This document shows, piece after piece, positions 11,230 through 22,793 of a stretch of DNA of 64,000 nucleotides. Position 1 is the stretch's first letter, and every line of letters begins with the position of its first letter. This stretch comes from Gammaproteobacteria bacterium (GTDB lineage Bacteria > Pseudomonadota > Gammaproteobacteria > Ga0077554 > Ga007554), in contig JAKFXX010000024.1 in the NCBI GenBank assembly GCA_021731145.1, forward strand, positions 1 through 64,000, written 5' to 3'. A program made the position numbers and the translations under genes. The notes under the pieces were generated by a model. It was given only the letters and a program-made list of their open reading frames with translations. It did not search any database and was not told the origin of the DNA.

Positions 11230-14200
11230 TTATCCCCTCAGCTTATCCAACACTTCTCCAACCTGCTTGATCCGCGCCGCGTTGTCGGGCATGGCGAGGG
11301 TAAAGCGCAGCTTGTCCTGGCCGTCCAGTTTGTAGGTGCGTGGCTGGGTCTGGATGAGGTGGATGATGGTGCGCGGATCGACGTTTGGCTCTGCGTTAAA
11401 GATGATGCGTCCGCCGAGTGGACCTGCTTCAACTTTACGTATCCCCAGCGGGCGGGCCTTGAGCTTGAGCTCGGTTACCTGGAACAGATTCTTGGTCGGT
11501 TCCGGCAACAGGCCGAAGCGGTCGATCATTTCCACTTGCAGTTCGCGCAGTTCTTCCTCGTTCGCGGCGCTGGCGATACGTTTGTACATGACCAGCCGCG
11601 CATGCACATCGGGCAGGTAGTCGTCGGGTATCAAGGCTGGAATATGCAGGTCGATCTCCGCGTGAGTATCAAGCGGCTGCTCCAGACTGGGCTGCTTGCC
11701 GGACTTCAGCGCCTTTACGGCGCGTTCCAGCAGTTCGGTGTAGAGCGTGAAGCCGATCTCCTGCATCTGCCCGCTCTGATCCTCACCCAGCAGTTCGCCC
11801 GCGCCGCGGATTTCCAGGTCGTGAGTGGCGAGCGTGAAACCCGCGCCCAGTTCCTCCAGTGATTCGATAGCCTCCAGACGCTTCACGGCATCGGCGGTGA
11901 TGAGGCTGCGCGGCGGGATGATGAGATAGGCATAGGCGCGATGATAGGAGCGTCCGACGCGGCCGCGCAGTTGATGGAGCTGTGCCAGGCCGAATTTATC
12001 GGCGCGGTTGATGACGATGGTGTTGGCGCTGGGCACGTCGATACCGGTCTCGATGATGGTGGTGCACACCAGTACGTTGAAGCGCTGATGGTAGAAGTCC
12101 AACATCACATGTTCCAGTTCGCGCTCGCGCATTTGACCGTGAGCGACGCGCACGCGGGCTTCGGGCACCAACTCCTCGATTTCGCGCGCCATTTTTTCGA
12201 TGGTGTCTACTTCGTTATGCAGGAAGTACACCTGGCCGCCGCGCTTGATCTCGCGTAAACAGGCCTCCTGAATCAGCGCCTTGTTCCATTCCCTGACAAA
12301 CGTTTTTACCGCAAGGCGGCGTGCCGGGGGGGTGGCGATTACGGATAAATCGCGCATCCCTGACAGCGCCATGTTGAGGGTGCGAGGGATGGGTGTGGCG
12401 GTTAGGGTGAGTACATCGACCTCGGCACGCAGCGCCTTGAAGCGCTCCTTTTGGCGCACGCCAAAACGGTGCTCTTCGTCGATGACAACCAACCCCAGGT
12501 TCTTGAACTTGATGTCGCCTTGCAAGAGCTTGTGGGTGCCGATGATGATATCCACCTTGCCATCCGTGATTCCCTCCAGCGCCGTGTCCTGTTCCTTTTT
12601 GGAGCGGAAGCGCGATAGCATCTCGATGCGTATCGGCCAGTCGGCGAAACGGTCTTTGAAGTTTTCATAATGCTGCTGGGCAAGCAGGGTGGTGGGCACG
12701 AGAACGGCAACCTGCTTGTCGCCATGCACAGCGAGGAACACGGCGCGCATGGCGACCTCGGTCTTGCCGAAACCGACGTCGCCACACACCAGCCGGTCCA
12801 TGGGCTTGCCGGATACCATGTCGGCGAGCACATCCTGAATTGCGGCTTGCTGATCCGGCGTCTCTTCAAAGGGGAAGCCCGCCACGAAGGCGGCGTATTG
12901 CTCATCGGCAGCGGGGAAGGCGTGCCCTTTGCGCGCCGCGCGCCGCGCGTAAACATCGAGCAATTCCGCAGCAACATCGCGCACCTGCTCGGCGGCCTTG
13001 CGCTTCGCGCGCTGCCATTGCTCGTTCCCCAGTTTGTGCAACGGTGCTTGTTCGGGGTTCGCGCCCGAATAGCGGCTGATCAAGTGCAGTGAGGAAACCG
13101 GTACATAGAGCTTGTCGCCACCGGCGTATTCCAGTGTCAAAAATTCTGTTTCGATCTCACCGAGCTTGAGGGTTTGCAGGCCCAGATAGCGCCCCACGCC
13201 GTGCTCCTCATGTACCACTGGCGCGCCGATGCTCAGCTCAACAAGGCTGCGTACCAGCGCATCAGGATCGCGGCCGCGCGTCTTACGGCGGCGGCGCTGC
13301 ATCACCTGTTCACCGAAGATCTGTGGCTCGGCGATAACAGTGATGCGTGGCTCATCAATCAGCAGACCATGTTCCAGCGGCGCAACGGTGATGCCCACAA
13401 CGCATCCGGTCGCGAGGAAAGTCTGCCAGTTATCGCACGCAACAGGCTGGAGGTGACCACCTTTGAGAAGTTCAAGCAGTGTTTCGCGGCGGCCAGCGGT
13501 CTCGGCGGCGAACAGAACTCTGCCATTGAAACTGGCGACAAACTCCATCAGTGCTGCGGCAGGTTGTGGTGCGCGTGGCGTCAAGGTCAGTGACGGCGTA
13601 GCTTGCGTGGCGTAGTTGTATGCCCCGGCGCGGTTATCGGTGTCCGCGCGCTGTATCGAAACGCGTGGAAATACCTGGCTGGCACCCATGACCTCATTGG
13701 CCTGTAAAAACACCTGCGTCGGAGCAAGCAACGGGCGTTCCCTGTCGTAGCGATGCTGCTCATAACGCTCACCGATCTCATTCCAAAAATCTGCAGCGGC
13801 TTGTTCGACGCCTTCAGTAGTGATCAGTATGCTGGTGCGCGGCAGGTAATCGAACAGGGTATGGGTCTGCTCAAAAAACAGCGGCAAATAATATTCGATG
13901 CCCGGTGGCGCAAGGCTGTTGCTGACATCGCGGTAGATCACGCTCTTCTGGGGATCGCCCTCGAAACTTGCGCGGTAGGCCTGGCGGAAGCGCGTCACGG
14001 CGTCTTTGTCGAAGGGGAACTCGCGCGCGGGCATGAAGCGGATGTGTTTGACGCTATCCAAAGAACGCTGGCTTTCCGCATCGAAGGTGCGGATGCTGTC
14101 CACTTCGTTGTCAAAAAGGTCGATGCGGTAGGGCAGGGGGCTGCCCATGGGGTAGAGATCGATCAAGCTGCCGCGCACCGCGAACTCGCCATGCTCCATG

Positions 14201-14727
14201 ACCTGCGACACGCATTGATAACCCGCGCCCTCAAGACGTTTGCGAAACTGGTCCAGATCGACTTTCGCGCCCACATCCAGCAACAGGCTGCTGCCTTCCA
14301 GCCAGGTGCGCGGCGGCAGACGGTGCATCAGCGTCGAAACCGGCACAATCAGGATGCCGCGCTGCAATGATGGTAGTTGATAAAGAGTGGCCAGGCGTTG
14401 CGAGATTATGTCTTGATGCGGCGAGAAATTGTCGTAGGGCAGTGTCTCCCAGTCGGGGAACGTCAGCACCGGCAATGCATCATGGTCCGCAATATAGAAT
14501 CGCAGCTCATATTCTAAAAGACTGGCGGCCTGGACATCGGCAGTGATCACCACCACGGGTCCTGGATGCCGCTGCGCCGCAGCGCTGATGACCAGTCCGA
14601 ATGCGCTGCCCTGCAGTCCGCCCCAAAATACCCTGTCACCCGGTTTTTCAGGCAGAACGGGCTGAAAGGGGCTGAGCTTGAGGCTGCCTGTTGTTAATGG
14701 ATTGGATGCTGGGGCCGATATCGTCAT
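11230..14727 (-). CDS. mfd: Transcription-repair coupling factor Mfd
   Basis: An 1165-residue DNA translocase that displaces stalled RNA polymerase and recruits UvrA. It has the UvrB-homology N-terminus, the RNA-polymerase-interacting domain (KLGEIETEFLTLEYAGGDK followed by LYVPVSSLHLI), then RecG-like motor domains with Walker A GDVGFGKTEVAMRA near residue 650, VIDEEHRFGVRQKER near 750, TATPIPRTLNMAL and QLHQLRGRVGRSYHRAYAY, and the C-terminal regulatory domain beginning around HIPALIPDDYLPDVHARL. Length and motif order match E. coli Mfd (1148). It is divergent from tetR, with 124 bases between the starts. The next gene downstream is nnr. Confidence 0.97.
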   Translation of the reverse strand: MTISAPASNPLTTGSLKLSPFQPVLPEKPGDRVFWGGLQGSAFGLVISAAAQRHPGPVVVITADVQAASLLEYELRFYIADHDALPVLTFPDWETLPYDNFSPHQDIISQRLATLYQLPSLQRGILIVPVSTLMHRLPPRTWLEGSSLLLDVGAKVDLDQFRKRLEGAGYQCVSQVMEHGEFAVRGSLIDLYPMGSPLPYRIDLFDNEVDSIRTFDAESQRSLDSVKHIRFMPAREFPFDKDAVTRFRQAYRASFEGDPQKSVIYRDVSNSLAPPGIEYYLPLFFEQTHTLFDYLPRTSILITTEGVEQAAADFWNEIGERYEQHRYDRERPLLAPTQVFLQANEVMGASQVFPRVSIQRADTDNRAGAYNYATQATPSLTLTPRAPQPAAALMEFVASFNGRVLFAAETAGRRETLLELLKGGHLQPVACDNWQTFLATGCVVGITVAPLEHGLLIDEPRITVIAEPQIFGEQVMQRRRRKTRGRDPDALVRSLVELSIGAPVVHEEHGVGRYLGLQTLKLGEIETEFLTLEYAGGDKLYVPVSSLHLISRYSGANPEQAPLHKLGNEQWQRAKRKAAEQVRDVAAELLDVYARRAARKGHAFPAADEQYAAFVAGFPFEETPDQQAAIQDVLADMVSGKPMDRLVCGDVGFGKTEVAMRAVFLAVHGDKQVAVLVPTTLLAQQHYENFKDRFADWPIRIEMLSRFRSKKEQDTALEGITDGKVDIIIGTHKLLQGDIKFKNLGLVVIDEEHRFGVRQKERFKALRAEVDVLTLTATPIPRTLNMALSGMRDLSVIATPPARRLAVKTFVREWNKALIQEACLREIKRGGQVYFLHNEVDTIEKMAREIEELVPEARVRVAHGQMRERELEHVMLDFYHQRFNVLVCTTIIETGIDVPSANTIVINRADKFGLAQLHQLRGRVGRSYHRAYAYLIIPPRSLITADAVKRLEAIESLEELGAGFTLATHDLEIRGAGELLGEDQSGQMQEIGFTLYTELLERAVKALKSGKQPSLEQPLDTHAEIDLHIPALIPDDYLPDVHARLVMYKRIASAANEEELRELQVEMIDRFGLLPEPTKNLFQVTELKLKARPLGIRKVEAGPLGGRIIFNAEPNVDPRTIIHLIQTQPRTYKLDGQDKLRFTLAMPDNAARIKQVGEVLDKLRG

Positions 14728-14814
14728 TTAAATAAGGCTGTTTTCTGAAAGTCTGGATGTAATTGAGCATTTTCCCATAGTTACTGATGTTACGCACCTT
14801 TGGCCGATACTTAA

Positions 14815-14842
14815 TTGACACTGAACTCAAGTTGCATACATA
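14815..14842 (+). promoter_or_regulatory. Probable tetR-operon promoter
   Basis: TTGACA at 14815-14820 is a perfect -35 hexamer. After a 16-base spacer, TACATA at 14837-14842 is a plausible -10. Predicted transcription start is near 14849-14851, so the message would begin at or just before the ATG at 14852, with no leader. No Shine-Dalgarno sequence precedes 14852 or the next ATG at 14858, which fits leaderless translation. Confidence 0.5.
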
Positions 14843-14855
14843 CTGGTTGGTATGT
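14838..14855. promoter_or_regulatory. TetR-family operator palindrome
   Basis: ACATACTGGTTGGTATGT is a perfect 6-base inverted repeat (ACATAC/GTATGT) around six bases, of the form typical for TetR-family operators. It overlaps the proposed -10 element and the first start codon of the adjacent tetR gene, so binding would block the operon: autorepression is the simple reading. Confidence 0.7.
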
Positions 14856-15457
14856 TAATGCGCAGCCCGGATCAAACACGCAAGATACTGCTCGACGCGG
14901 CCTATGAGGAAATCCACCATTATGGTTTCCAGGCTGCGAGCCTGTCCCGCATCCTGGCCAACACCGGCTTGACCAAAGGCGCGTTATACCATCATTTCCC
15001 TACCAAACTTGCACTTGGCTACGCAGTGGTTGATGAAGTTATCCATGAAGAGATTTTGAACTGCTGGGCAACGCCTCTGACAGACTGCCAGGACCCTGTC
15101 GACTGCCTGATGAATCTCCTGCAAAAAGCGGCGGAAGATACAGGGGATGAATTTGTTGAAATGGGATGTCCCCTGAACAATCTGGCTCAAGAGATGTCTT
15201 CGGTGGACGAGGGGTTTCGTCAGAAATTGGGCCATATTTATACCCTGTGGCGGCAAGCCATCGCCAATGCACTTGCCAGAGGCCAGGCGAACGGGAAGGT
15301 ACGCGCGGATGTGGATACGGGGGCGGCGGCGATCTTTATCGTGGCGGCTATCGAGGGATGTCTTGGCATGGCCAAGAACGCGCGCGACATCAACTTGTTG
15401 TTCGAATGCGGGGCAGGGTTGCTGCATTACCTTGATACGTTACATGCCAAGCCTTAA
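14852..15457 (+). CDS. TetR/AcrR-family transcriptional regulator
   Basis: A 201-residue regulator. The N-terminal helix-turn-helix runs through ARKILLDAAYEEIHHYG-like text and LSRILANTGLTKGALYHHF, the canonical TetR DNA-binding signature (about residues 10-55); the rest is the helical ligand-binding and dimer domain. It precedes the RND exporter gene by 36 bases in the same direction and has a perfect operator palindrome over its start, so it very likely represses itself and the exporter operon until a ligand binds. Start is either ATG 14852 or ATG 14858; neither has a ribosome-binding site. The ligand is unknown, but a hydrophobic compound handled by the exporter is the obvious guess. Confidence 0.9.
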   Translation: MLMRSPDQTRKILLDAAYEEIHHYGFQAASLSRILANTGLTKGALYHHFPTKLALGYAVVDEVIHEEILNCWATPLTDCQDPVDCLMNLLQKAAEDTGDEFVEMGCPLNNLAQEMSSVDEGFRQKLGHIYTLWRQAIANALARGQANGKVRADVDTGAAAIFIVAAIEGCLGMAKNARDINLLFECGAGLLHYLDTLHAKP

Positions 15458-15493
15458 CAGCATAGAATTCATGAATCAAGGAGAAGAATAAAC

Positions 15494-17827
15494 ATGGCCC
15501 TCGCATTTTCCCGCTGGGTGATTCGCTGGCGCTGGTTGATCGTGATTGGAACCTTGCTGGTTGTTACGCTCATCGCAAGCGGTGCGCGGTATATCGAGTT
15601 TGCCAGCAGCTACCGATCCTATTTCAGTACGGACAACCCCCAGTTGCTGGCTTTTGATGAGCTTCAAAATACCTATAGCAAGAGTGACAACGTCATGTTT
15701 GTCATAGCGCCCAAGGATGGCAAGGTGTTCACCCGGCAGACGCTCGCCACCGTGGAGTGGTTGACCCAGCAGGGCTGGCAGATGCCCTATTCAAAGCGCG
15801 TCGACTCCGTCAGCAATTTCCAGTATACGCGCGCGGAGGGTGATGATCTGGTTGTGAAAGATCTGGCGGAAAATGCCGCGTCTTTGCCGGATGCGGAACT
15901 TGAACGCATCAGCAAAATCGCTCTGGCCGAGCCGCTGCTAATAAATCGTCTTGTTTCCCCGCGTGCCGATGTCACCGGCGTTAGCGTGACATTCGTCCTG
16001 CCGGAGAAGACGCTCGTAGAGGTGCCAGAGGTCGTGGCGTTTGCGCGTAAGCTTGTCGAACAGGCCAAGGCGCGCGACCCGAATGTGGCCATCTATCTGA
16101 CCGGCATGGTGCCGTATAACAACGCCTTCCAGGAGTATTCCCAGAAAGATCTCGAAACGCTCGTGCCGATCATGTACGGCATCATCATACTGATTACAGT
16201 TCTGACATTACGCTCCGTGGCGGGCACGATTGCCACGTTGCTGGTGATCATTTTCTCAGCGGTTGCCGCGATGGGAATGATGGGGTGGTTGGGCATCAAA
16301 CTTTCTGCGCCTACCGCTACCGCACCGACAGTGATATTGACGGTGGCGGTGGCCGACAGCATCCACGTTCTTTTGTCCATGCTTCATGGGATGAGGTCCG
16401 GGCAGGATAAACATACGGCGATTATTGAGGCTTTGCGCATCAATCTTTCAGCCATATTTCTTACCAGCGTCACTACCATCATCGGCTTCCTGACCATGAA
16501 TTATAGTGAAGTACCGCTGTTTCGCGACCTTGGTAATGTCCTGGCGATGGGGGTAGCGGCGGCCTGGATTCTTTCCACCCTGTTTTTGCCCGCATTGATG
16601 GCAATATTGCCGGTCCATGTCAAGCCGGTCAAGCCCGGCAAGGCGCGCGACTGGGCCACCATGGAGCGTTTTGGAGAATTCGTCGTCAAGCGGCGTAACC
16701 CGATCTTGTGGGCTGTTGCCATGCTGACAGTCGGTCTGGTAGCGTTTATCCCACGCAATGAGCTGAATGACGATTTCGTCAAATATTTCGACAAGACCGT
16801 GGATTTCCGCAACGCCACGGATTTTATGGTGGCCAACCTGACCGGCGTTAACCAGATCCAGTATTCATTGGGGGCGGGGGAAAGTGGAGGGGTGAGCAAT
16901 CCTGAGTATTTGAAAAAAGTCGACGAGTTCGCCGACTGGTACCGCCAGCAGCCGGGAGTCATGCACGTCAACTCCATCACCGATGTCATGAAGCGCCTCA
17001 GCAAAAACATGCACGGTGATGATCCCGTATGGTACCGTATTCCCGAGGCGCGCGATTTAAGTGCCCAGTATCTTTTGCTTTATGAAATGTCCCTGCCTTT
17101 TGGTCTTGATCTGAACGACCAGATCAATGTAGACAAATCGGCGTCGCGCATGATTGTTACGATGGGCCATGCTACCACCAAGGAAATTCTTGCACTGGAA
17201 TCCCATGCCCAGCAATGGCTGCGCGAACATGCCCCAGCTTCGATGATTAACCACGGGACAGGCACAACGATCATGTTCGCCCATATCGGCGACCGTAATA
17301 TTCGCAGCATGATCGGCGGCAACCTGATAAGCCTGGTGCTTACATCCCTTGTCATCATGGTTGCCATCCGAAGCTTTAAGATTGGACTTATCAGCCTGAT
17401 TCCCAACCTGGTGCCTATCGGCATGGCGTTTGGGTTATGGGGGCTGTTTGTGGGGCAAATAGGGTTGTCTTTGTCGGTTATTACCACCATGACTTTCGGT
17501 ATCGTGGTGGATGATACAATCCATTTCCTGAGCAAATATTTGCAGGCCAAGCGCGAAATGAATTTGAGTGCGGAAGATGCGGTGCGTTATGCTTTCTCCA
17601 CCGTGGGTATGGCGGTGTGGGTGACATCACTGATACTCGTAGCCGGTTTTTTGGTGTTGACATTATCCTCATTTGAGCTCAACTCCGGCATGGGGCTGCT
17701 GGCCGCCATCACTATCGCCTTTGCCGCCTTTGCCGAATATTTATTGCTGGCGCCATTATTGATAAAACTCGAGGAAAAAGGACGTGACAAGAATATTGTT
17801 TCTACTGCTGGCTCTATTACCCCTTAG
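15494..17827 (+). CDS. RND-superfamily exporter, MMPL/SSD type
   Basis: A 777-residue inner-membrane transporter with two repeats, each being one transmembrane helix, a large periplasmic loop and a five-helix bundle. The first helix is at about residues 13-33. The first bundle includes YGIIILITVLTLRSVAGT and GFLTMNYSEVPLFRDLG; the second includes SLVIMVAIRSFKIGLISLIP and FGIVVDDTIHFLSKYLQA. The acidic pair in VVDDTIHF and VAVADSIHVLLSM are the usual proton-relay positions. It resembles MMPL/HpnN-type lipid or hydrophobic-molecule exporters rather than AcrB (which is about 1050 residues), and needs no visible adaptor protein. The ribosome-binding site AAGGAGAAG lies 8 bases before the ATG. It overlaps the LolA-like gene by 44 bases, so the two are a coupled unit. 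Confidence 0.88.
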   Translation: MALAFSRWVIRWRWLIVIGTLLVVTLIASGARYIEFASSYRSYFSTDNPQLLAFDELQNTYSKSDNVMFVIAPKDGKVFTRQTLATVEWLTQQGWQMPYSKRVDSVSNFQYTRAEGDDLVVKDLAENAASLPDAELERISKIALAEPLLINRLVSPRADVTGVSVTFVLPEKTLVEVPEVVAFARKLVEQAKARDPNVAIYLTGMVPYNNAFQEYSQKDLETLVPIMYGIIILITVLTLRSVAGTIATLLVIIFSAVAAMGMMGWLGIKLSAPTATAPTVILTVAVADSIHVLLSMLHGMRSGQDKHTAIIEALRINLSAIFLTSVTTIIGFLTMNYSEVPLFRDLGNVLAMGVAAAWILSTLFLPALMAILPVHVKPVKPGKARDWATMERFGEFVVKRRNPILWAVAMLTVGLVAFIPRNELNDDFVKYFDKTVDFRNATDFMVANLTGVNQIQYSLGAGESGGVSNPEYLKKVDEFADWYRQQPGVMHVNSITDVMKRLSKNMHGDDPVWYRIPEARDLSAQYLLLYEMSLPFGLDLNDQINVDKSASRMIVTMGHATTKEILALESHAQQWLREHAPASMINHGTGTTIMFAHIGDRNIRSMIGGNLISLVLTSLVIMVAIRSFKIGLISLIPNLVPIGMAFGLWGLFVGQIGLSLSVITTMTFGIVVDDTIHFLSKYLQAKREMNLSAEDAVRYAFSTVGMAVWVTSLILVAGFLVLTLSSFELNSGMGLLAAITIAFAAFAEYLLLAPLLIKLEEKGRDKNIVSTAGSITP

Positions 17828-18572
17828 CATGCCTGTTGGCGCACTGGCCGAGTCCCCTGAAGAAAAGGGGCTCGCCATTGCTGTTGAAGCAGACCGGCGC
17901 GATCTCGGCTTCGGCGATTTCACCGCGGACATGCTGATGGTCCTCAAAAACAAACAAGGGGAGGAGAGCACCCGTCAGATACGCGCACAGAACCTGGAGG
18001 TAAAGGGCGACGGCGACAAGAGTTTGTCGATTTTCGATGAACCCGTCGATGTAAAAGGCACCACCATGCTGACATTTTCCCATAAGGTTGATGAAGACGA
18101 TCAATGGATGTACCTGCCCGCGCTCAAGCGCGTCAAGCGCATTGCCTCGGACAATAAATCGGGCTCCTACATGGGCAGCGAATTCGCCTATGAGGACATA
18201 GGCTCTCAGGAGGTGGAAAAATATACCTACAAATATTTGCGTGATGAAACGTGCGAGGGCCAACCCTGCTTTGTGCTGGAGCGCTATCCGGTGAACAAAT
18301 ATTCCGGTTACAAGCGCCAAGTGGTATGGATGGATAAGGCCGAGTATCGCCCATGGAAAATCGATTATTATGACCGCAAGGACAGTTTGCTGAAAACACT
18401 GACTTTCAAAGGCTATAAACAATACCTTAACAAGCACTGGCGGCCTGATGAAATGTTCATGGTCAATCACCAGACCGGCAAGAGCACGCTGCTCAAATGG
18501 AGCAACTATAAATTTCGCACCGGCCTGGCGGATGCCGACTTCACTCAGGACAGCATCAAGCGCGCGCGTTGA
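17784..18572 (+). CDS. LolA-like outer-membrane lipoprotein-sorting protein
   Basis: A 262-residue secreted protein. It starts at a GTG (17784) preceded by AAAAAGGAC and has a signal peptide (ILFLLLALLPLSMPVGALA, cleavage near residue 22). The mature protein shows QWMYLPALKRVKRIASDNK, GSYMGSEFAYEDIG and KYSGYKRQVVWMDKAEY, characteristic of the LolA-like family annotated as outer-membrane lipoprotein-sorting protein: a half-barrel that shields a lipid or acyl chain in the periplasm. This is not the housekeeping LolA (about 200 residues). Its start lies inside the exporter gene and its end overlaps the region of the next start, so the three genes are tightly coupled. I infer that it carries the exporter's substrate across the periplasm. 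Confidence 0.85.
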   Translation: MTRILFLLLALLPLSMPVGALAESPEEKGLAIAVEADRRDLGFGDFTADMLMVLKNKQGEESTRQIRAQNLEVKGDGDKSLSIFDEPVDVKGTTMLTFSHKVDEDDQWMYLPALKRVKRIASDNKSGSYMGSEFAYEDIGSQEVEKYTYKYLRDETCEGQPCFVLERYPVNKYSGYKRQVVWMDKAEYRPWKIDYYDRKDSLLKTLTFKGYKQYLNKHWRPDEMFMVNHQTGKSTLLKWSNYKFRTGLADADFTQDSIKRAR

Positions 18573-18574
18573 TA

Positions 18575-19963
18575 ATGAACCACCTACGCACGAGTTTGCA
18601 CCGACGTAAGGCTGGCCTCTTCTTGGCAACAGCCGCCGCACTATTTTTATGCGGCAACGGAGGGTTGCCACCGCCCGCCGCTGCCGATGAAGAACGCAAG
18701 CTGCTGTCTCTTCCCGAGGCTGGGGAGCGTGCACCGCTGCCAATGCCCGACATTAGAGGGAGAGAGCGGTTTCTTCCATTAGGTACCCGTCAGAAAGAGG
18801 CGGCACGGCTCCAAGGGGCAGCGGAAGAGTCGGGAAAATGGTCAGGCTACGTTGCGGTGGAATCACGCGCATTCCTCCAGGATGCGCTGTTTATCGAGCA
18901 GGACAACACGCAATTTTCTCTGGCGCTTCAACCCGAGTTTTACAGAAAGTGGGATAACGGCAAGCAGAGCTTTACCTTTGTACCTTTTTATCGAAAAGAT
19001 CAGCGTGACGAGCAGCGCACCCATTTTGATATCCGCGAGATGACCTGGCTGAAGGTTGGGAAGGGGCACGAATGGCGCGTGGGCATCCGCAAGGTATTCT
19101 GGGGTGTGACCGAATCCCAGCACCTGGTCGACATCATCAACCAGACCGATCTGGTTGAAAATCCTGATGGCGAGGACAAGCTCGGCCAACCCATGATTAA
19201 TCTGGCTCTGATGCGCGGCTGGGGCACGCTGGATTTGATTGTGTTACCCGGCTTTCGTGAGCGCACCTTCCCCGGCTTGAATGGCCGGCTGCGTTTTCCC
19301 CTGCGGGTCGACACCAGTCAGGCTCAATACGAATCCGGCAGCAAATGGCGGCACATAGATTTGGCGGCGCGCTGGGCGCTGACGGCCGGCAACTGGGATA
19401 TCGGGCTTTCGCACTTCTATGGCACAAGCCGTGACCCGCTGCTTTCTCTTGGCTTGGACAGCACGGGTAAGCCGGTGTTAATACCTTACTATTCCCTGAT
19501 TAATCAGACGGGTCTTGATGTGCAAATGGCCATGGGTAGTTTGCTGTGGAAGCTTGAGGCGATACACCGCTCCGGTTTTGGTCCAAAAAATTATGTCGCG
19601 TCGACGGCCGGTTTGGAGTACACCCTCTCAGGCCTGTTCGGTTCAGGAATGGATCTGGGGCTACTCACGGAATATCTCTATGACGAGCGCGGCAACCAGG
19701 CCACCACGCCTTTTCAGGACGACGTGATGGTCGGTTTGCGCCTGGCCGTGAATGACGTGCAAAGCACTGAAGTGCTGATGGGCGCCATCTTCGACCGCAC
19801 GACCAGTGCGCGTTTTTTCAATCTGGAAGCCAGCCGGCGCCTGGGTGACAACTGGAAGCTGAACATGGAAGCGCGCGCCTACGCCGGCCTGCCACCCGCC
19901 AACATACTCTACGGCTTCCGTAACGATGATTACCTGAAAATCGAGCTGGCAAGATTTTTTTGA
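18575..19963 (+). CDS. Predicted outer-membrane beta-barrel protein
   Basis: A 462-residue protein with a signal peptide (FLATAAALFLCGNGG, ending near PAAA-D at about residue 40). The rest alternates short aromatic-flanked strands (WSGYVAVESRAFLQDALF, GHEWRVGIRKVFWGV, RFFNLEASRRLGDNWKLNM) and ends in YLKIELARFF: a C-terminal phenylalanine is the Bam recognition signature of outer-membrane barrels. I do not recognise a named family, though size and layout recall barrels encoded beside RND and LolA-like genes. The ATG at 18575 lies three bases after the LolA-like stop codon; a TTG at 18569 is less likely. It would complete a path from inner membrane through periplasm to outer membrane. Confidence 0.75.
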   Translation: MNHLRTSLHRRKAGLFLATAAALFLCGNGGLPPPAAADEERKLLSLPEAGERAPLPMPDIRGRERFLPLGTRQKEAARLQGAAEESGKWSGYVAVESRAFLQDALFIEQDNTQFSLALQPEFYRKWDNGKQSFTFVPFYRKDQRDEQRTHFDIREMTWLKVGKGHEWRVGIRKVFWGVTESQHLVDIINQTDLVENPDGEDKLGQPMINLALMRGWGTLDLIVLPGFRERTFPGLNGRLRFPLRVDTSQAQYESGSKWRHIDLAARWALTAGNWDIGLSHFYGTSRDPLLSLGLDSTGKPVLIPYYSLINQTGLDVQMAMGSLLWKLEAIHRSGFGPKNYVASTAGLEYTLSGLFGSGMDLGLLTEYLYDERGNQATTPFQDDVMVGLRLAVNDVQSTEVLMGAIFDRTTSARFFNLEASRRLGDNWKLNMEARAYAGLPPANILYGFRNDDYLKIELARFF

Positions 19964-19986
19964 GAACTCCTGCTTTGTTAGGCAGC

Positions 19987-20028
19987 GCGCGCACCAAGCC
20001 CCGAAAAACGGTGCGCGCGGGGCGTTTT
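19987..20028. terminator. Bidirectional intrinsic terminator
   Basis: Inverted repeat GCGCGCACC (19987-19995) with GGTGCGCGC (20010-20018), plus an alternative overlapping stem GCCCCG (19998-20003) with CGGGGC (20018-20023) followed by GTTTT. It lies between two convergent transcription units: the exporter operon ending at 19963 and the nuclease gene ending at 20027. Confidence 0.65.
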
Positions 20029-20914
20029 ATCCCGCTGGCACGAGATTCAGCTTTCCCACGGCCTCGGCAACATCCTTGGGCCAGATAAATATCCGGTTAT
20101 ACGGTTTGACCTTGTAATAATCCTGCGGGTAATGAATTTCCTGCGTGGTCATATCCACGCAGTATCTCTCGATCCACCCATAGCGTTCGGATGAACTCAG
20201 GTCGCTTCCCTTCACCAGCCTGGCTGTCACTTCCCACAATTTGTGGCACATGCGGAATTCATAACCGGTCAGCGCCATCGGGTCACTCCATGCACCCTTT
20301 TTCTTTTCAAAGGCATTTTCAGCCGCTTTTTGCAGCATAACGAGATCCGTATACTTGGGCAGACTGGGGTGAATCGGAAACGAAGCGGCCCAGCCTGATT
20401 CGATCATCAACAGATTGAACGTTGCTCGTTCCGAATAGGGCAGGGTGGCCAGTTCTTTTTTGTCATAATTGGGCGCCATGTAGGCAAGAAGCCGTCCATA
20501 TTGATCAAACGGCTGGTTGGCGGCGCGAAGGAACACGGAGCGCTTGCTACCGTTGGGCCTGGTCAGCTTCAGATCCAGCATTTTCTGGAACGCCTCTGAG
20601 GCGTTGCCACCTTGCTGCTTCTGCAAAGTGCCCGCGTTCCCGGTGGCAAGTTTTGGCTGGAGATAAGAAGCCAAATCTGAATCAATCGGCGCTTTACCCG
20701 CTTGAATCCAGTCGGCGAGTTCTTTTAATTTGGCATCGTGTTTTGACGGGTCTTCGGTGCCAGGATAATGCACCTCCGGCGTGTCGATACTTAACATGCG
20801 GATTGCCATGGAAACATAAGGCGTATCTCCGTCGGTGATACGTTCAAGTTTTGTCGTGCCCAGTGAATTCAGTTCGAATCCCACGGGATCCCAGAATAGC
20901 TTTACTTTTGACAT
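20027..20914 (-). CDS. Staphylococcal-nuclease-like (SNase) protein
   Basis: A 295-residue protein with an SNase (thermonuclease) OB-fold. The catalytic set is visible: ITDGDTPYVSMAIRMLSIDTPE supplies the first arginine (AIR), the calcium-binding Asp (IDTPE) and Glu, and FDQYGRLLAYM the second arginine; SGWAASFPIH and LQKAAENAFEKKKGAW complete the family. An insertion of about 80 residues separates the first and second blocks. Unlike secreted thermonucleases it has no signal peptide, so a cytoplasmic role is likely. A good ribosome-binding site (AGGAGAATAAC) precedes the ATG at 20914; the frame is open upstream into text overlapping the end of the neighbouring GH13 gene. It is 25 bases downstream of that gene, which suggests an operon. 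Base composition is AT-richer than the flanks. Confidence 0.8.
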   Translation of the reverse strand: MSKVKLFWDPVGFELNSLGTTKLERITDGDTPYVSMAIRMLSIDTPEVHYPGTEDPSKHDAKLKELADWIQAGKAPIDSDLASYLQPKLATGNAGTLQKQQGGNASEAFQKMLDLKLTRPNGSKRSVFLRAANQPFDQYGRLLAYMAPNYDKKELATLPYSERATFNLLMIESGWAASFPIHPSLPKYTDLVMLQKAAENAFEKKKGAWSDPMALTGYEFRMCHKLWEVTARLVKGSDLSSSERYGWIERYCVDMTTQEIHYPQDYYKVKPYNRIFIWPKDVAEAVGKLNLVPAG

Positions 20915-20939
20915 GTTATTCTCCTTGCATGTGAAGTAA

Positions 20940-22793
20940 TTACTGATTAACAGTCCATATGCGCCCATAATTGCTGGGTATTCTCAACCAGCGTTCTTCC
21001 GTATTCGCAACCCCATTCAAGTTATCCTCTCCATGAAGTTCTTCCCGGTAGTTGCCGTTCAACGGAAAAGTGAACGGCACCCACTGTTCCTGATCGCCGA
21101 AATTGAGCGCCACCAGGCTGTAATGGTTGCCAAGCCGGCGGGAAAATAACAAAACATTCTTTGACTGGTAGCGGTCGTGGTGGTTATAAAAGAAATGATC
21201 ACCATCCCTGAACTGAGGGGAGTCACGGCGCAATCTTGTCAGGCGGCGTACCATCGCGACTGTGAGATTGCCGATGGAATCATAGAAATAATCCCAACGC
21301 ACCGGTCGAAACAACATTACACGCCCCCAGCCTGAATCAGGTATGTAATAGTTTTCACCAAACTCCTGGCCTTGCCACAGCATTGGAATCCCTTTTGCCG
21401 TCAACAGGCCAATCAGGTAAGGCTGCACCTTGTACCATAGTCTGCGGTTTCCTTCGCCCAGCAAATCATTGTCACGGCTGGCCATGCCAAAATTGCAGAC
21501 GAAGCGGGAGTGATCGTGATTTTCGATATATTGCAGTGCTGTTTTCTTGATGGTGTCGTTATTGCTGGTGACTTCGGATGGATAACCGGAAAGCCCAAGC
21601 CGAAGTCCAAGATTGACCAGATCACCTTGATTGCCATGCGCAACCGCTTCAGCCGCACCGAGCGTTTCATTCTGCCATGTACAATTACTATAGGTTTTCT
21701 CCAGGATTTCCTGTGGTCCTTCCAGTTGCTCGGCGCACTGGATTAAATTATTGGCGCCATTATTGAAAAATCGCTGCCAGTGATCGGCCTGGCCTTGTTT
21801 CGCCTTTACAGTCCGATAGGTTTCGAACGTCAGTGAGGCATAGCCTTGTCCAAGAGGGCCATCCCAATAGTTGGGAACGCAATCGTAACGGAACCCGTCA
21901 ACGTGATAGCAATCAAGCCAGTGATGATTGACGGTAAAGAAAAAGTCCTGGGTAAATGTGCGGCGGAAATCAGTGCTTTCGCCAAAGTAGTCTTTTGCAA
22001 AGGCGCCCATAAAAGGATTTTCGTGATAATTCAGTTTTTTATACAGATAGGCGTAGGGGAAGTTATCGCTGGTGTGGCCGTAAACAACGTCGAGAATGAT
22101 GGCGATCTTTCTTTTGTGTGCCTCATCGACAAGTTTTTGAAAATCCTTTCGCTTCCCAAACCGCTCATCCACACCGAAATAACCAATCGGCAGAAACCCC
22201 CAATCAACGGTATTGGAAACATTCGACACCGGCATCACTTCGATGCAGTTGATCCCCAGGTCGGCCAGATAATCGAGCAAGCTGATGGTTTTGTCGATAT
22301 CCTCGCCAAATTCATTAATCATGAGTTCGTATAGGATAAGGTCGTTCAGCGACGGCGTTTTCCAGCTATTCTCGTTTCCACTCCAGGCATGAGGCTCATA
22401 CCCCAGAGTGAAGGCCGACAGTTTTCCGATGCCGAACTCCCTGGCAAATGGATCAATGATCCAGTCGATTAATTCGGGGGTGTTGGGGTTTTGCAGTATA
22501 TAACGGTAGACGTATCTCCCCGGTGATCCCCATGCCGATTCGGGATGCTTTTTAGAGGCGGGATTGATCTCGACTTCCACGGACCAGTAATCGCCATAGT
22601 CAGGATCACCCGAATGAGCCAGCTCAAACATCGATGGCTGGATCTCTTGCAGGAATTGATCATTTTCATGGATTACTTTTACCCAGAGGCGATTTCCAGC
22701 GTTGGCCGACACCCAGGGCAAAAAGAGACCGAACTGAACAACGCCGTTTGATTTCTCCCTTGCGCCGAGTTTTTCTAAAGGTAGCAGCTTCAT
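20940..22793 (-). CDS. GH13-family glycosidase (alpha-amylase/branching-enzyme-like)
   Basis: A 617-residue protein with an N-terminal beta-sandwich (CBM48-like, about 1-140) and a GH13 TIM barrel. Visible regions are I VVYGHTSDN, II CYHVDGFRYDCV (nucleophile Asp), III IQCAEQLEGPQ (acid/base Glu) and IV QYIENHDHSRF (stabilising Asp), so the triad is complete. A C-terminal beta domain follows (SLVALNFGDQEQWVPFTFP). Members act on alpha-1,4/1,6 glucans; exact specificity (branching, debranching or trehalose-related) cannot be read here. There is no signal peptide, so it is cytoplasmic. Start is the ATG before KLLPLEKLG; the frame is open 10 codons upstream. No glycogen genes are nearby, and the AT-rich composition and adjacent IS630 remnant suggest acquisition by transfer. 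Confidence 0.82.
   Translation of the reverse strand: MKLLPLEKLGAREKSNGVVQFGLFLPWVSANAGNRLWVKVIHENDQFLQEIQPSMFELAHSGDPDYGDYWSVEVEINPASKKHPESAWGSPGRYVYRYILQNPNTPELIDWIIDPFAREFGIGKLSAFTLGYEPHAWSGNENSWKTPSLNDLILYELMINEFGEDIDKTISLLDYLADLGINCIEVMPVSNVSNTVDWGFLPIGYFGVDERFGKRKDFQKLVDEAHKRKIAIILDVVYGHTSDNFPYAYLYKKLNYHENPFMGAFAKDYFGESTDFRRTFTQDFFFTVNHHWLDCYHVDGFRYDCVPNYWDGPLGQGYASLTFETYRTVKAKQGQADHWQRFFNNGANNLIQCAEQLEGPQEILEKTYSNCTWQNETLGAAEAVAHGNQGDLVNLGLRLGLSGYPSEVTSNNDTIKKTALQYIENHDHSRFVCNFGMASRDNDLLGEGNRRLWYKVQPYLIGLLTAKGIPMLWQGQEFGENYYIPDSGWGRVMLFRPVRWDYFYDSIGNLTVAMVRRLTRLRRDSPQFRDGDHFFYNHHDRYQSKNVLLFSRRLGNHYSLVALNFGDQEQWVPFTFPLNGNYREELHGEDNLNGVANTEERWLRIPSNYGRIWTVNQ

Follow-up and report, generated by a model that had tools for sequence, protein, structure and literature searches.

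Organisation of the locus

The window analysed here, a 64,000-nucleotide stretch of DNA from a gammaproteobacterium of the GTDB lineage Ga0077554 (assembly GCA_021731145.1, contig JAKFXX010000024.1, positions 1 to 64,000), carries on its forward strand one run of four genes, encoding a TetR-family repressor, an MMPL/HAE3-like resistance-nodulation-division (RND) pump, a LolA-like periplasmic carrier and an outer-membrane barrel, and the function of this operon is our subject. All four open reading frames (ORFs) lie where a preliminary description, made from the sequence alone, had placed them. The repressor gene (14852–15457; Pfam TetR_N, E 1.9e-11, and TetR_C_13, E 7.1e-16) has an alternative ATG at 14858 and is followed by the pump gene (15494–17827; 777 aa; Pfam MMPL, E 2.3e-36). 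The carrier gene (17784–18572; Pfam LolA_like, E 8.6e-67, and DUF1329, E 2.2e-9) encodes a signal-peptide-like N-terminus, and its GTG start at 17784 retains a hydrophobic segment at residues 4–22, with the N-termini of relatives as further evidence; since the pump ORF ends at 17827, the coordinates give the 44-bp overlap between the two genes that had been described. The barrel gene (18569–19963; 464 aa; assigned from an AlphaFold2 model, VIA and hhalign) overlaps the carrier stop by 4 bp if read from the TTG at 18569, and starts three bases past it, the spacing originally given, if read from the ATG at 18575; its product ends in phenylalanine (...ARFF), also as described.

The operon is flanked by an Mfd gene upstream of tetR (11230–14727) and an SNase-domain gene downstream of the barrel gene (20027–20968), both on the minus strand. 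Between these two, the part of the window that was checked, no adaptor, TolC or other transporter gene was found, in agreement with the preliminary description. This differs from a tripartite HAE1 pump, with a membrane fusion protein adaptor and a TolC-type channel in its operon, as the operon and its direct neighbours contain neither.

Conservation of the pump, carrier and barrel genes

The pump, carrier and barrel genes are one conserved unit. Among 229 genomes of the class, sampled with strong-match cut-offs, the barrel is found in 84 and the carrier in 79; 78 have both, six only the barrel (G082, G129, G144, G169, G191 and G201), one only the carrier (G001, a remnant) and 144 neither, an association with a Fisher p of ~9e-53 if common descent is ignored. 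A wider scan of GTDB gave at least 571 relatives, from which 80 loci were kept for counts of gene order and neighbours. By a strict rule the carrier gene lies immediately upstream of the barrel gene in 55 of the 69 loci with enough upstream DNA, and failures of the rule are due to overlap alone in L052, to two inserted genes in L084 and, in the other 12, to the absence of a carrier from the stretch covered, which is short in some of them. Carrier, MMPL pump and barrel are all in order in 44 of 57 loci; the 13 failures comprise L052, which is intact but overlapping, L084, with two enzyme genes inserted, L051 and L060, without an upstream pump, and nine loci with neither partner. In nearer relatives the carrier is adjacent in 16 of 19 loci besides the window's own (not in L006, L017 and L019). 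The three genes therefore do occur together in other genomes, one of the two points on which the preliminary description had made its interpretation depend.

Since the barrel and carrier of G038 are on separate contigs, the carrier may be located elsewhere in the genome where the locus lacks it. Barrel genes with neither carrier nor pump in the locus are seen in L032, L036, L038, L041, L042, L073 and L087, six of these seven having Beggiatoa-, Marithrix- or Thiotrichaceae-type titles. No new partner shared by such orphan barrels was found in the 14 loci inspected, save a dehydrogenase pair in L063 and L084 and neighbours common to close relatives. In these two loci (L084:8037-9829 and L063:8-1549; titles Nitrospinaceae and Nitrospinota) the barrel gene is preceded by genes for a zinc-type dehydrogenase (in L063 divided between two frames) and for a short-chain dehydrogenase. 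In L084, where the proteins were scanned, they separate the carrier gene from the barrel gene, an arrangement known from detoxification operons, and these genes may hint at the chemistry of the cargo. In the betaproteobacterial L096 (10085-11784) the barrel gene is followed, with a 1-bp overlap, by a 219-aa MacB-like fragment instead of being part of the RND trio, and therefore the type of pump may not be fixed. Beyond the unit and TetR the neighbours vary, the largest protein cluster (which starts like an ABC ATPase) being present in 13 of the 80 loci and the next in seven.

This distribution bears on an alternative that we consider unlikely, namely that the trio delivers a lipid made by the cell itself to the outer membrane, in the way that HpnN handles hopanoids and BstABC is proposed to handle sterols. 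It is favoured by the pump's fold relatives MmpL3, HpnN and NPC1, which move lipids, by the action of LolA-type carriers in outer-membrane biogenesis, and by the wide spread of the unit in bacterial groups, many of which, going by record titles, are not known to us to use hydrocarbons. However, in the same 229 genomes, with descent again ignored, the barrel is found in 8 of the 32 with a strong squalene-hopene cyclase (11.7 expected) and in 4 of the 12 with a wax-ester synthase (4.4 expected), so that an association with hopanoids or wax esters, considered as a candidate, was rejected as unsupported by co-occurrence. A strong barrel match in just 84 of the genomes and the deletion of the operon in a sister species (see below) also speak against lipid placement, and a local TetR combined with a surface pore suggests an inducible response. 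A cyclase scan of the window's own genome gave partial matches only, one of them above the family cut-off, in a 409-aa frame.

The pump and the carrier

The description of the pump as MMPL/HpnN-like holds for its first half. With 125.8 bits for Pfam MMPL (cut-off 20.5) it is placed in the family expected of the pump in a system like AmeABCD of Castellaniella (see below), and its AlphaFold2 model, with a mean predicted local distance difference test (pLDDT) score of 85.7, has the RND fold; the HpnN models fail by a wide gap (69.9 against 751.85 bits for TIGR03480 and 19.1 against 1100 bits for NF052374). The best NCBIfam match is the HAE3 model TIGR00921 at 178.9 bits, below its cut-off of 351.9, so that strict HAE3 membership is not reached. 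The model aligns across 655–728 residues with MmpL3/4/5, HpnN, NPC1 and Patched. The highest Z belongs to the drug pump CmeB (44.5; 629 residues at 8.1 Å), level with MmpL and NPC1 at 42–44; on the question of a TolC-docking domain like that of tripartite HAE1 pumps, Z does not split the two groups, and the alignments cover 516–657 residues at 6.0–10.2 Å for AcrB-type chains of 993–1035 aa, against 655–664 residues at 4.1–4.2 Å for MmpL3. Asp673-Asp674 are invariant in 41/41 homologues. Position 288, on the fourth long helix, is aspartate in 21 and asparagine in 18 of the 41, and given this variation beside the fixed aspartate pair, some members of the family may relay protons differently.

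The carrier scores 224.8 bits for PF17131 (LolA_like; cut-off 30) and 37.5 bits for DUF1329 (cut-off 23.1), which places it, as had been described, in the LolA superfamily to which the corresponding AmeABCD protein belongs. It bears a conserved basic strip, LPALKRVKRI. Its solved relatives are 3BK5 (E 4.2e-93), 9TP6, 4Z48 and 3BUU, of which 9TP6 is LolA3 of P. gingivalis (PMC13103446).

A carrier with such relatives could instead belong to a device that exports or assembles protein, either the barrel itself or surface lipoproteins, as was suggested for the TOL_3187/3188 pair (PMC6304351). We regard this as very improbable. Membership of the LolA superfamily, with LolA3 as a relative, is compatible with it, as is the good alignment of SecDF with the membrane core of the pump (402 residues, 2.3 Å); however, the pump reaches just 21.2 bits for SecD/SecF (cut-off 148.6) next to its score for MMPL, the unit has no lipoprotein gene, and barrels are assembled by Bam.

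The outer-membrane barrel

The barrel has no Pfam or NCBIfam match at E 1 and nothing from PHROGs, and a profile search of PDB sequences found no barrel; the six records obtained from a plasmid collection are labelled 'hypothetical protein' in four cases and unannotated in two. The preliminary description accordingly left it without a family, yet distant kin could be found. The AlphaFold2 model, based on 19 homologues, has a mean pLDDT of 76.5 and 20 strand segments after residue 90, with the N-terminal stretch poorly predicted. In VIA alignments it matches OccD2 with Z 24.2 (3.0 Å over 297 residues) and AlgE with Z up to 23.4. The likeness to the OprD/Occ and AlgE barrels, which have 18 strands, is thus one of predicted fold (Z 22–24 across ~300 residues, 7–12% identity), and the sequence does not join these families. 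No FadL-type barrels appear in the VIA list, which does not exclude that type. The concern that the third protein might not fold as a barrel was in this way not borne out by the model.

When compared by hhalign with seven DUF1302-type barrels, the family gives a match of 96% with E 4.7e-9 over 275 columns. All seven come from the window's own taxonomic family, and one of them, L134, has an N-terminus derived from the window barrel family, which the aligned part, beginning at residue 153, excludes. On this profile-profile match we take the barrel family to be a divergent cousin of DUF1302. One of four relatives scanned gave Wzi at E 0.0013 and DUF1302 at E 0.026, both below cut-off, so that the Pfam family seen in the barrel of AmeABCD is not reached directly.

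The two faces of the strands alternate in the manner of a genuine barrel, and strand positions predicted to face the lumen are more conserved (0.75 against 0.51 outside) and more charged (0.32 against 0.07). Because inside and outside were told apart by hydropathy, the comparison is partly circular, and shuffling within strands under the identical rule served as the control: the differences in hydropathy, conservation and charge each exceed all 2000 shuffles, that in charge narrowly (0.255 against a maximum of 0.251). Nineteen of the 20 charged strand residues with at least 90% conservation point into the lumen of the model. Such a charged interior would suit a plain hydrocarbon less well than an amphiphile that has a polar head.

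The repressor and its operator

The putative tetR promoter (14815–14844, forward strand) is sigma-70-like, with TTGACA and CATACT separated by 18 nt (10/12 consensus matches), and is the best of six sites in a consensus scan of 14700–20060, where shuffles average 4.1 such sites. The palindrome ACATACTGGTTGGTATGT (14838–14855, symmetric in strand; 6+6 bp arms with no mismatch) is the predicted TetR operator, and overlies the -10 element of this promoter match as well as the first tetR start codon. CATAC-N6-GTATG recurs in the equivalent position in seven of eight relatives with a TetR 49–63% identical (L043 is without it), although these seven are partly dependent, as four are symbiont-type genomes and two are of one genus. 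They are also the only ones among the 32 TetR-bearing loci scanned; the remainder, L043 apart, have more distant TetRs. The pattern CATACNGGTNGGTATG has a single match in the window's own genome (2.89 Mb) at up to one mismatch, and the reversed control has none; when two mismatches are allowed, 0.27 matches would be expected by chance within the window alone. Being unique in the genome, the operator pattern suggests that the repressor most likely serves this operon alone. In 30 of 43 copies one of the two ORFs preceding the MMPL gene on the same strand is of the TetR family or cluster.

A pump-carrier fusion and traces of operon loss

In G093 (L137:97-5284) pump and carrier are joined in one 1069-aa frame, with a TetR gene before it and a barrel of the family after it. 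The joining segment can be read in two ways, as a 13th helix or as an internal, cleavable signal peptide, and because of the second reading the fusion was dropped as proof of a tethered carrier. Of the long frames checked, in G093, G123 and G153, only the first is a pump-carrier fusion among the matches listed; the search for further loci in this order covered two genomes.

The window's own genome has a second, distant unit on contig 1 (about 69460–76089; L132:7461-14090), consisting of a PF17131 carrier, a DUF1302 barrel, an MMPL pump and an unassigned 325-aa protein, and such a pairing of a DUF1302 barrel with an MMPL pump occurs in six of seven relatives of the family. Another LolA-like gene lies at about 83730–84570 of the same contig.

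The sister species G003 carries a deletion scar between mfd and the SNase gene (C7, about 607431–607956; L136:7432-7957), made up of a 3' remnant of the barrel gene with stops (87% over 328 bp) and 26 bp that match DNA lying immediately before the tetR promoter. Elsewhere in G003 (L135:6435-8279) and in G001 (L134:6870-8764) a piece comprising the 3' end of the carrier gene and the 5' end of the barrel gene stands before a DUF1302 barrel, in-frame with it in G003, and it seems that this barrel took over the signal peptide of the piece. Beside the piece lie a further LolA-like gene and an ABC set of the MacB type. Contig 5 of G001 also has a 26-residue match to the start of the pump. The scar and the remnants suggest that the operon was present in the common ancestor and is dispensable.

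Proposed mechanism

We think it moderately probable that the operon encodes a compact system for export across the envelope, under local repression and of the Ame (apolar monoterpene efflux) kind. All three envelope proteins have kin in the types of AmeA, AmeB and AmeD, the pump through MMPL, the carrier through PF17131 and DUF1329 and the barrel through its distant tie to DUF1302, and by this analogy the operon is likely to export a compound that is apolar or amphipathic. Also in favour are the co-occurrence and order of the three genes, the second unit on contig 1, the fusion in G093, the operator, the conserved charged lumen, the dehydrogenase genes of L084, the effects of AmeABCD loss and the response of TOL_3187/3188 to n-C28 alkane. 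The route for a hydrophobic molecule proposed in the preliminary description is thus kept in an apolar or amphipathic form, while the hopanoid among its suggested cargoes loses ground with the cyclase counts given above.

In the scheme that we propose, TetR would sit on the operator over its own promoter and be released when a hydrophobic or amphipathic ligand builds up. The pump, as its RND fold and invariant aspartate pair imply, would be driven by the proton gradient and extract the ligand from the outer leaflet of the inner membrane or from the periplasm. The carrier would take the ligand in its cleft and hand it to the barrel, a step suggested by the LolA superfamily, the strong co-occurrence and the one pump-carrier fusion, and the barrel, with its predicted fold and conserved charged lumen, would pass it across the outer membrane. 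We infer the substrate, the direction and the shuttle step from these features. The cargo, the weakest point, would most likely be an amphiphile whose head is anionic or polar (a long-chain fatty acid or an oxidised hydrocarbon, for instance), which the cell would expel to protect itself; that it is anionic is a guess, made because the lumen of the barrel is charged and the carrier has a basic strip. It is possible, if rather doubtful, that the system is a widespread bacterial counterpart of NPC1-NPC2 with an outer-membrane exit of its own. The RND pump would then load the soluble carrier with an anionic amphiphile, perhaps a free fatty acid, and the carrier would bring this to a dedicated barrel, representing a new family, for release through the charged lumen, all under one local repressor.

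Several observations weigh against an export system of this kind. Six of the 84 strong-barrel genomes are without a strong carrier, and in 9 of 57 loci neither partner is near the barrel, six of these nine being titled Beggiatoa-, Marithrix- or Thiotrichaceae. The MacB-like fragment of L096 has 22.8 bits, below its cut-off. In Foldseek alone, general porins and AlgE lead, with modest TM-scores by model length of 0.35–0.54 in the best 50 rows, and the charged lumen is a poor match for bare hydrocarbons such as monoterpenes. Real-time efflux of Nile Red was almost equal in AmeABCD mutant and wild type (PMC6394551), and growth on Tween 20 depends on the P. putida relatives with DUF1302 and DUF1329 (PMC10866462).

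This last result points towards uptake of a hydrophobic nutrient, in which the barrel would admit the compound, the carrier would take it to the inner membrane and the pump would join in. A DUF1329 gene is likewise reported to be needed for growth on phenanthrene (PMC13101534), and TOL_3187/3188 increase on n-C28 (PMC6304351). On the other hand, loss of AmeABCD raises dye accumulation, if slightly (PMC6394551), and no neighbour besides the unit and TetR recurs in more than 13 of the 80 loci. Several holders are by name autotrophs (Beggiatoa-type and Thiodiazotropha in the titles), and in the RND exporters known to have this fold the proton gradient drives outward transport. We therefore judge uptake improbable, and retain export of the Ame kind.

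Little is known about the way in which apolar molecules get through the Gram-negative envelope in the absence of a TolC tube, and the trio is a small, self-contained and common version of such a route. Its self-contained nature, single operator and small number of fixed neighbours would allow the entire route to be transferred to a laboratory strain for testing. The barrel family merits a name, and its tie to DUF1302 connects scattered reports on hydrocarbon tolerance.

Comparison with known systems

No description of a TetR-led trio with this barrel was recognised in the literature searched, as judged from listings in which few subscription journals are covered. Relatives of the arrangement, AmeABCD of Castellaniella defragrans and PP_0765/PP_0766 of P. 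putida, have been studied by experiment, which corrects the preliminary description. AmeABCD also brings together an HAE3-type RND pump, a LolA-superfamily protein and an outer-membrane protein without a classical adaptor or TolC (PMC6394551). Its loss led to poorer growth on apolar monoterpenes, and the rise in dye accumulation concerned Nile Red in cells treated with carbonyl cyanide m-chlorophenylhydrazone (CCCP) (PMC6394551). AmeA is a DUF1302 protein, AmeB a DUF1329 protein and the fourth protein, AmeC, belongs to COG4447 (PMC6394551), whereas the window has a PF17131 carrier and no fourth protein: no AmeC-type gene lies between tetR, pump, carrier and barrel, the region that this search covered. 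The window's barrel differs in reaching DUF1302 by profile-profile comparison only, and its operon includes a TetR gene, orders its genes differently and is not part of a catabolic island.

In P. putida the likeness of PP_0765/PP_0766, with PP_2018/PP_2019, lies in a DUF1302 barrel and a DUF1329 protein, and for this second protein contacts with the barrel and with an efflux transporter were predicted; by gene numbers that system occupies two sites, it serves the use of Tween 20, and its families are just distantly related to ours (PMC10866462). In Thalassolituus oleivorans TOL_3187 combines MMPL and LolA-like parts in one protein, unlike the separate pump and carrier of the window, and is followed by the porin-like TOL_3188 without known domains, a layout equal to that of G093; TOL_3188 resembles the window's barrel by description only. 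On the n-C28 alkane TOL_3187 was up 42-fold and TOL_3188 was seen only there, and porin delivery together with alkane passage was proposed (PMC6304351). The 'Nanopod' cluster of a benzene degrader is a system of the same kind (PMC13101534), and Bacteroidetes have TetR-ABC-MMPL-LolA operons induced by iron shortage (PMC10434189).

More remote parallels share the principle of pairing pump and carrier. The fold of LppX is LolA-like, and the pair that it forms with MmpL7 differs from the trio in its mycomembrane setting and lipoprotein carrier; to our knowledge no beta-barrel of the window's kind goes with it. This pair joins an MMPL pump to a carrier in the export of phthiocerol dimycocerosate (PDIM) in mycobacteria (PMC11539658). 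BstABC of Methylococcus capsulatus likewise has an inner-membrane pump (with an RND model for BstA), a periplasmic carrier, an outer-membrane-associated part and an apolar cargo, whereas BstB is PhnD-like and BstC a helical TRAP-T-type protein (PMC10942540), and the window's pump has 16.9 bits against 1400 for the BstA model.

Given the kinship of the barrel to DUF1302 and the carrier matches to PF17131 and DUF1329, the operon appears to be a reduced, TetR-led relative of AmeABCD and PP_0765/PP_0766 without an AmeC-type gene. As far as searched, it is an uncharacterised variant of the Ame kind, a slimmed cousin of the hydrocarbon-tolerance systems and not a wholly new machine; new are the unnamed barrel family with its conserved charged lumen, the genome-unique operator, the one MMPL-LolA fusion and the deletion scar in a sister species.

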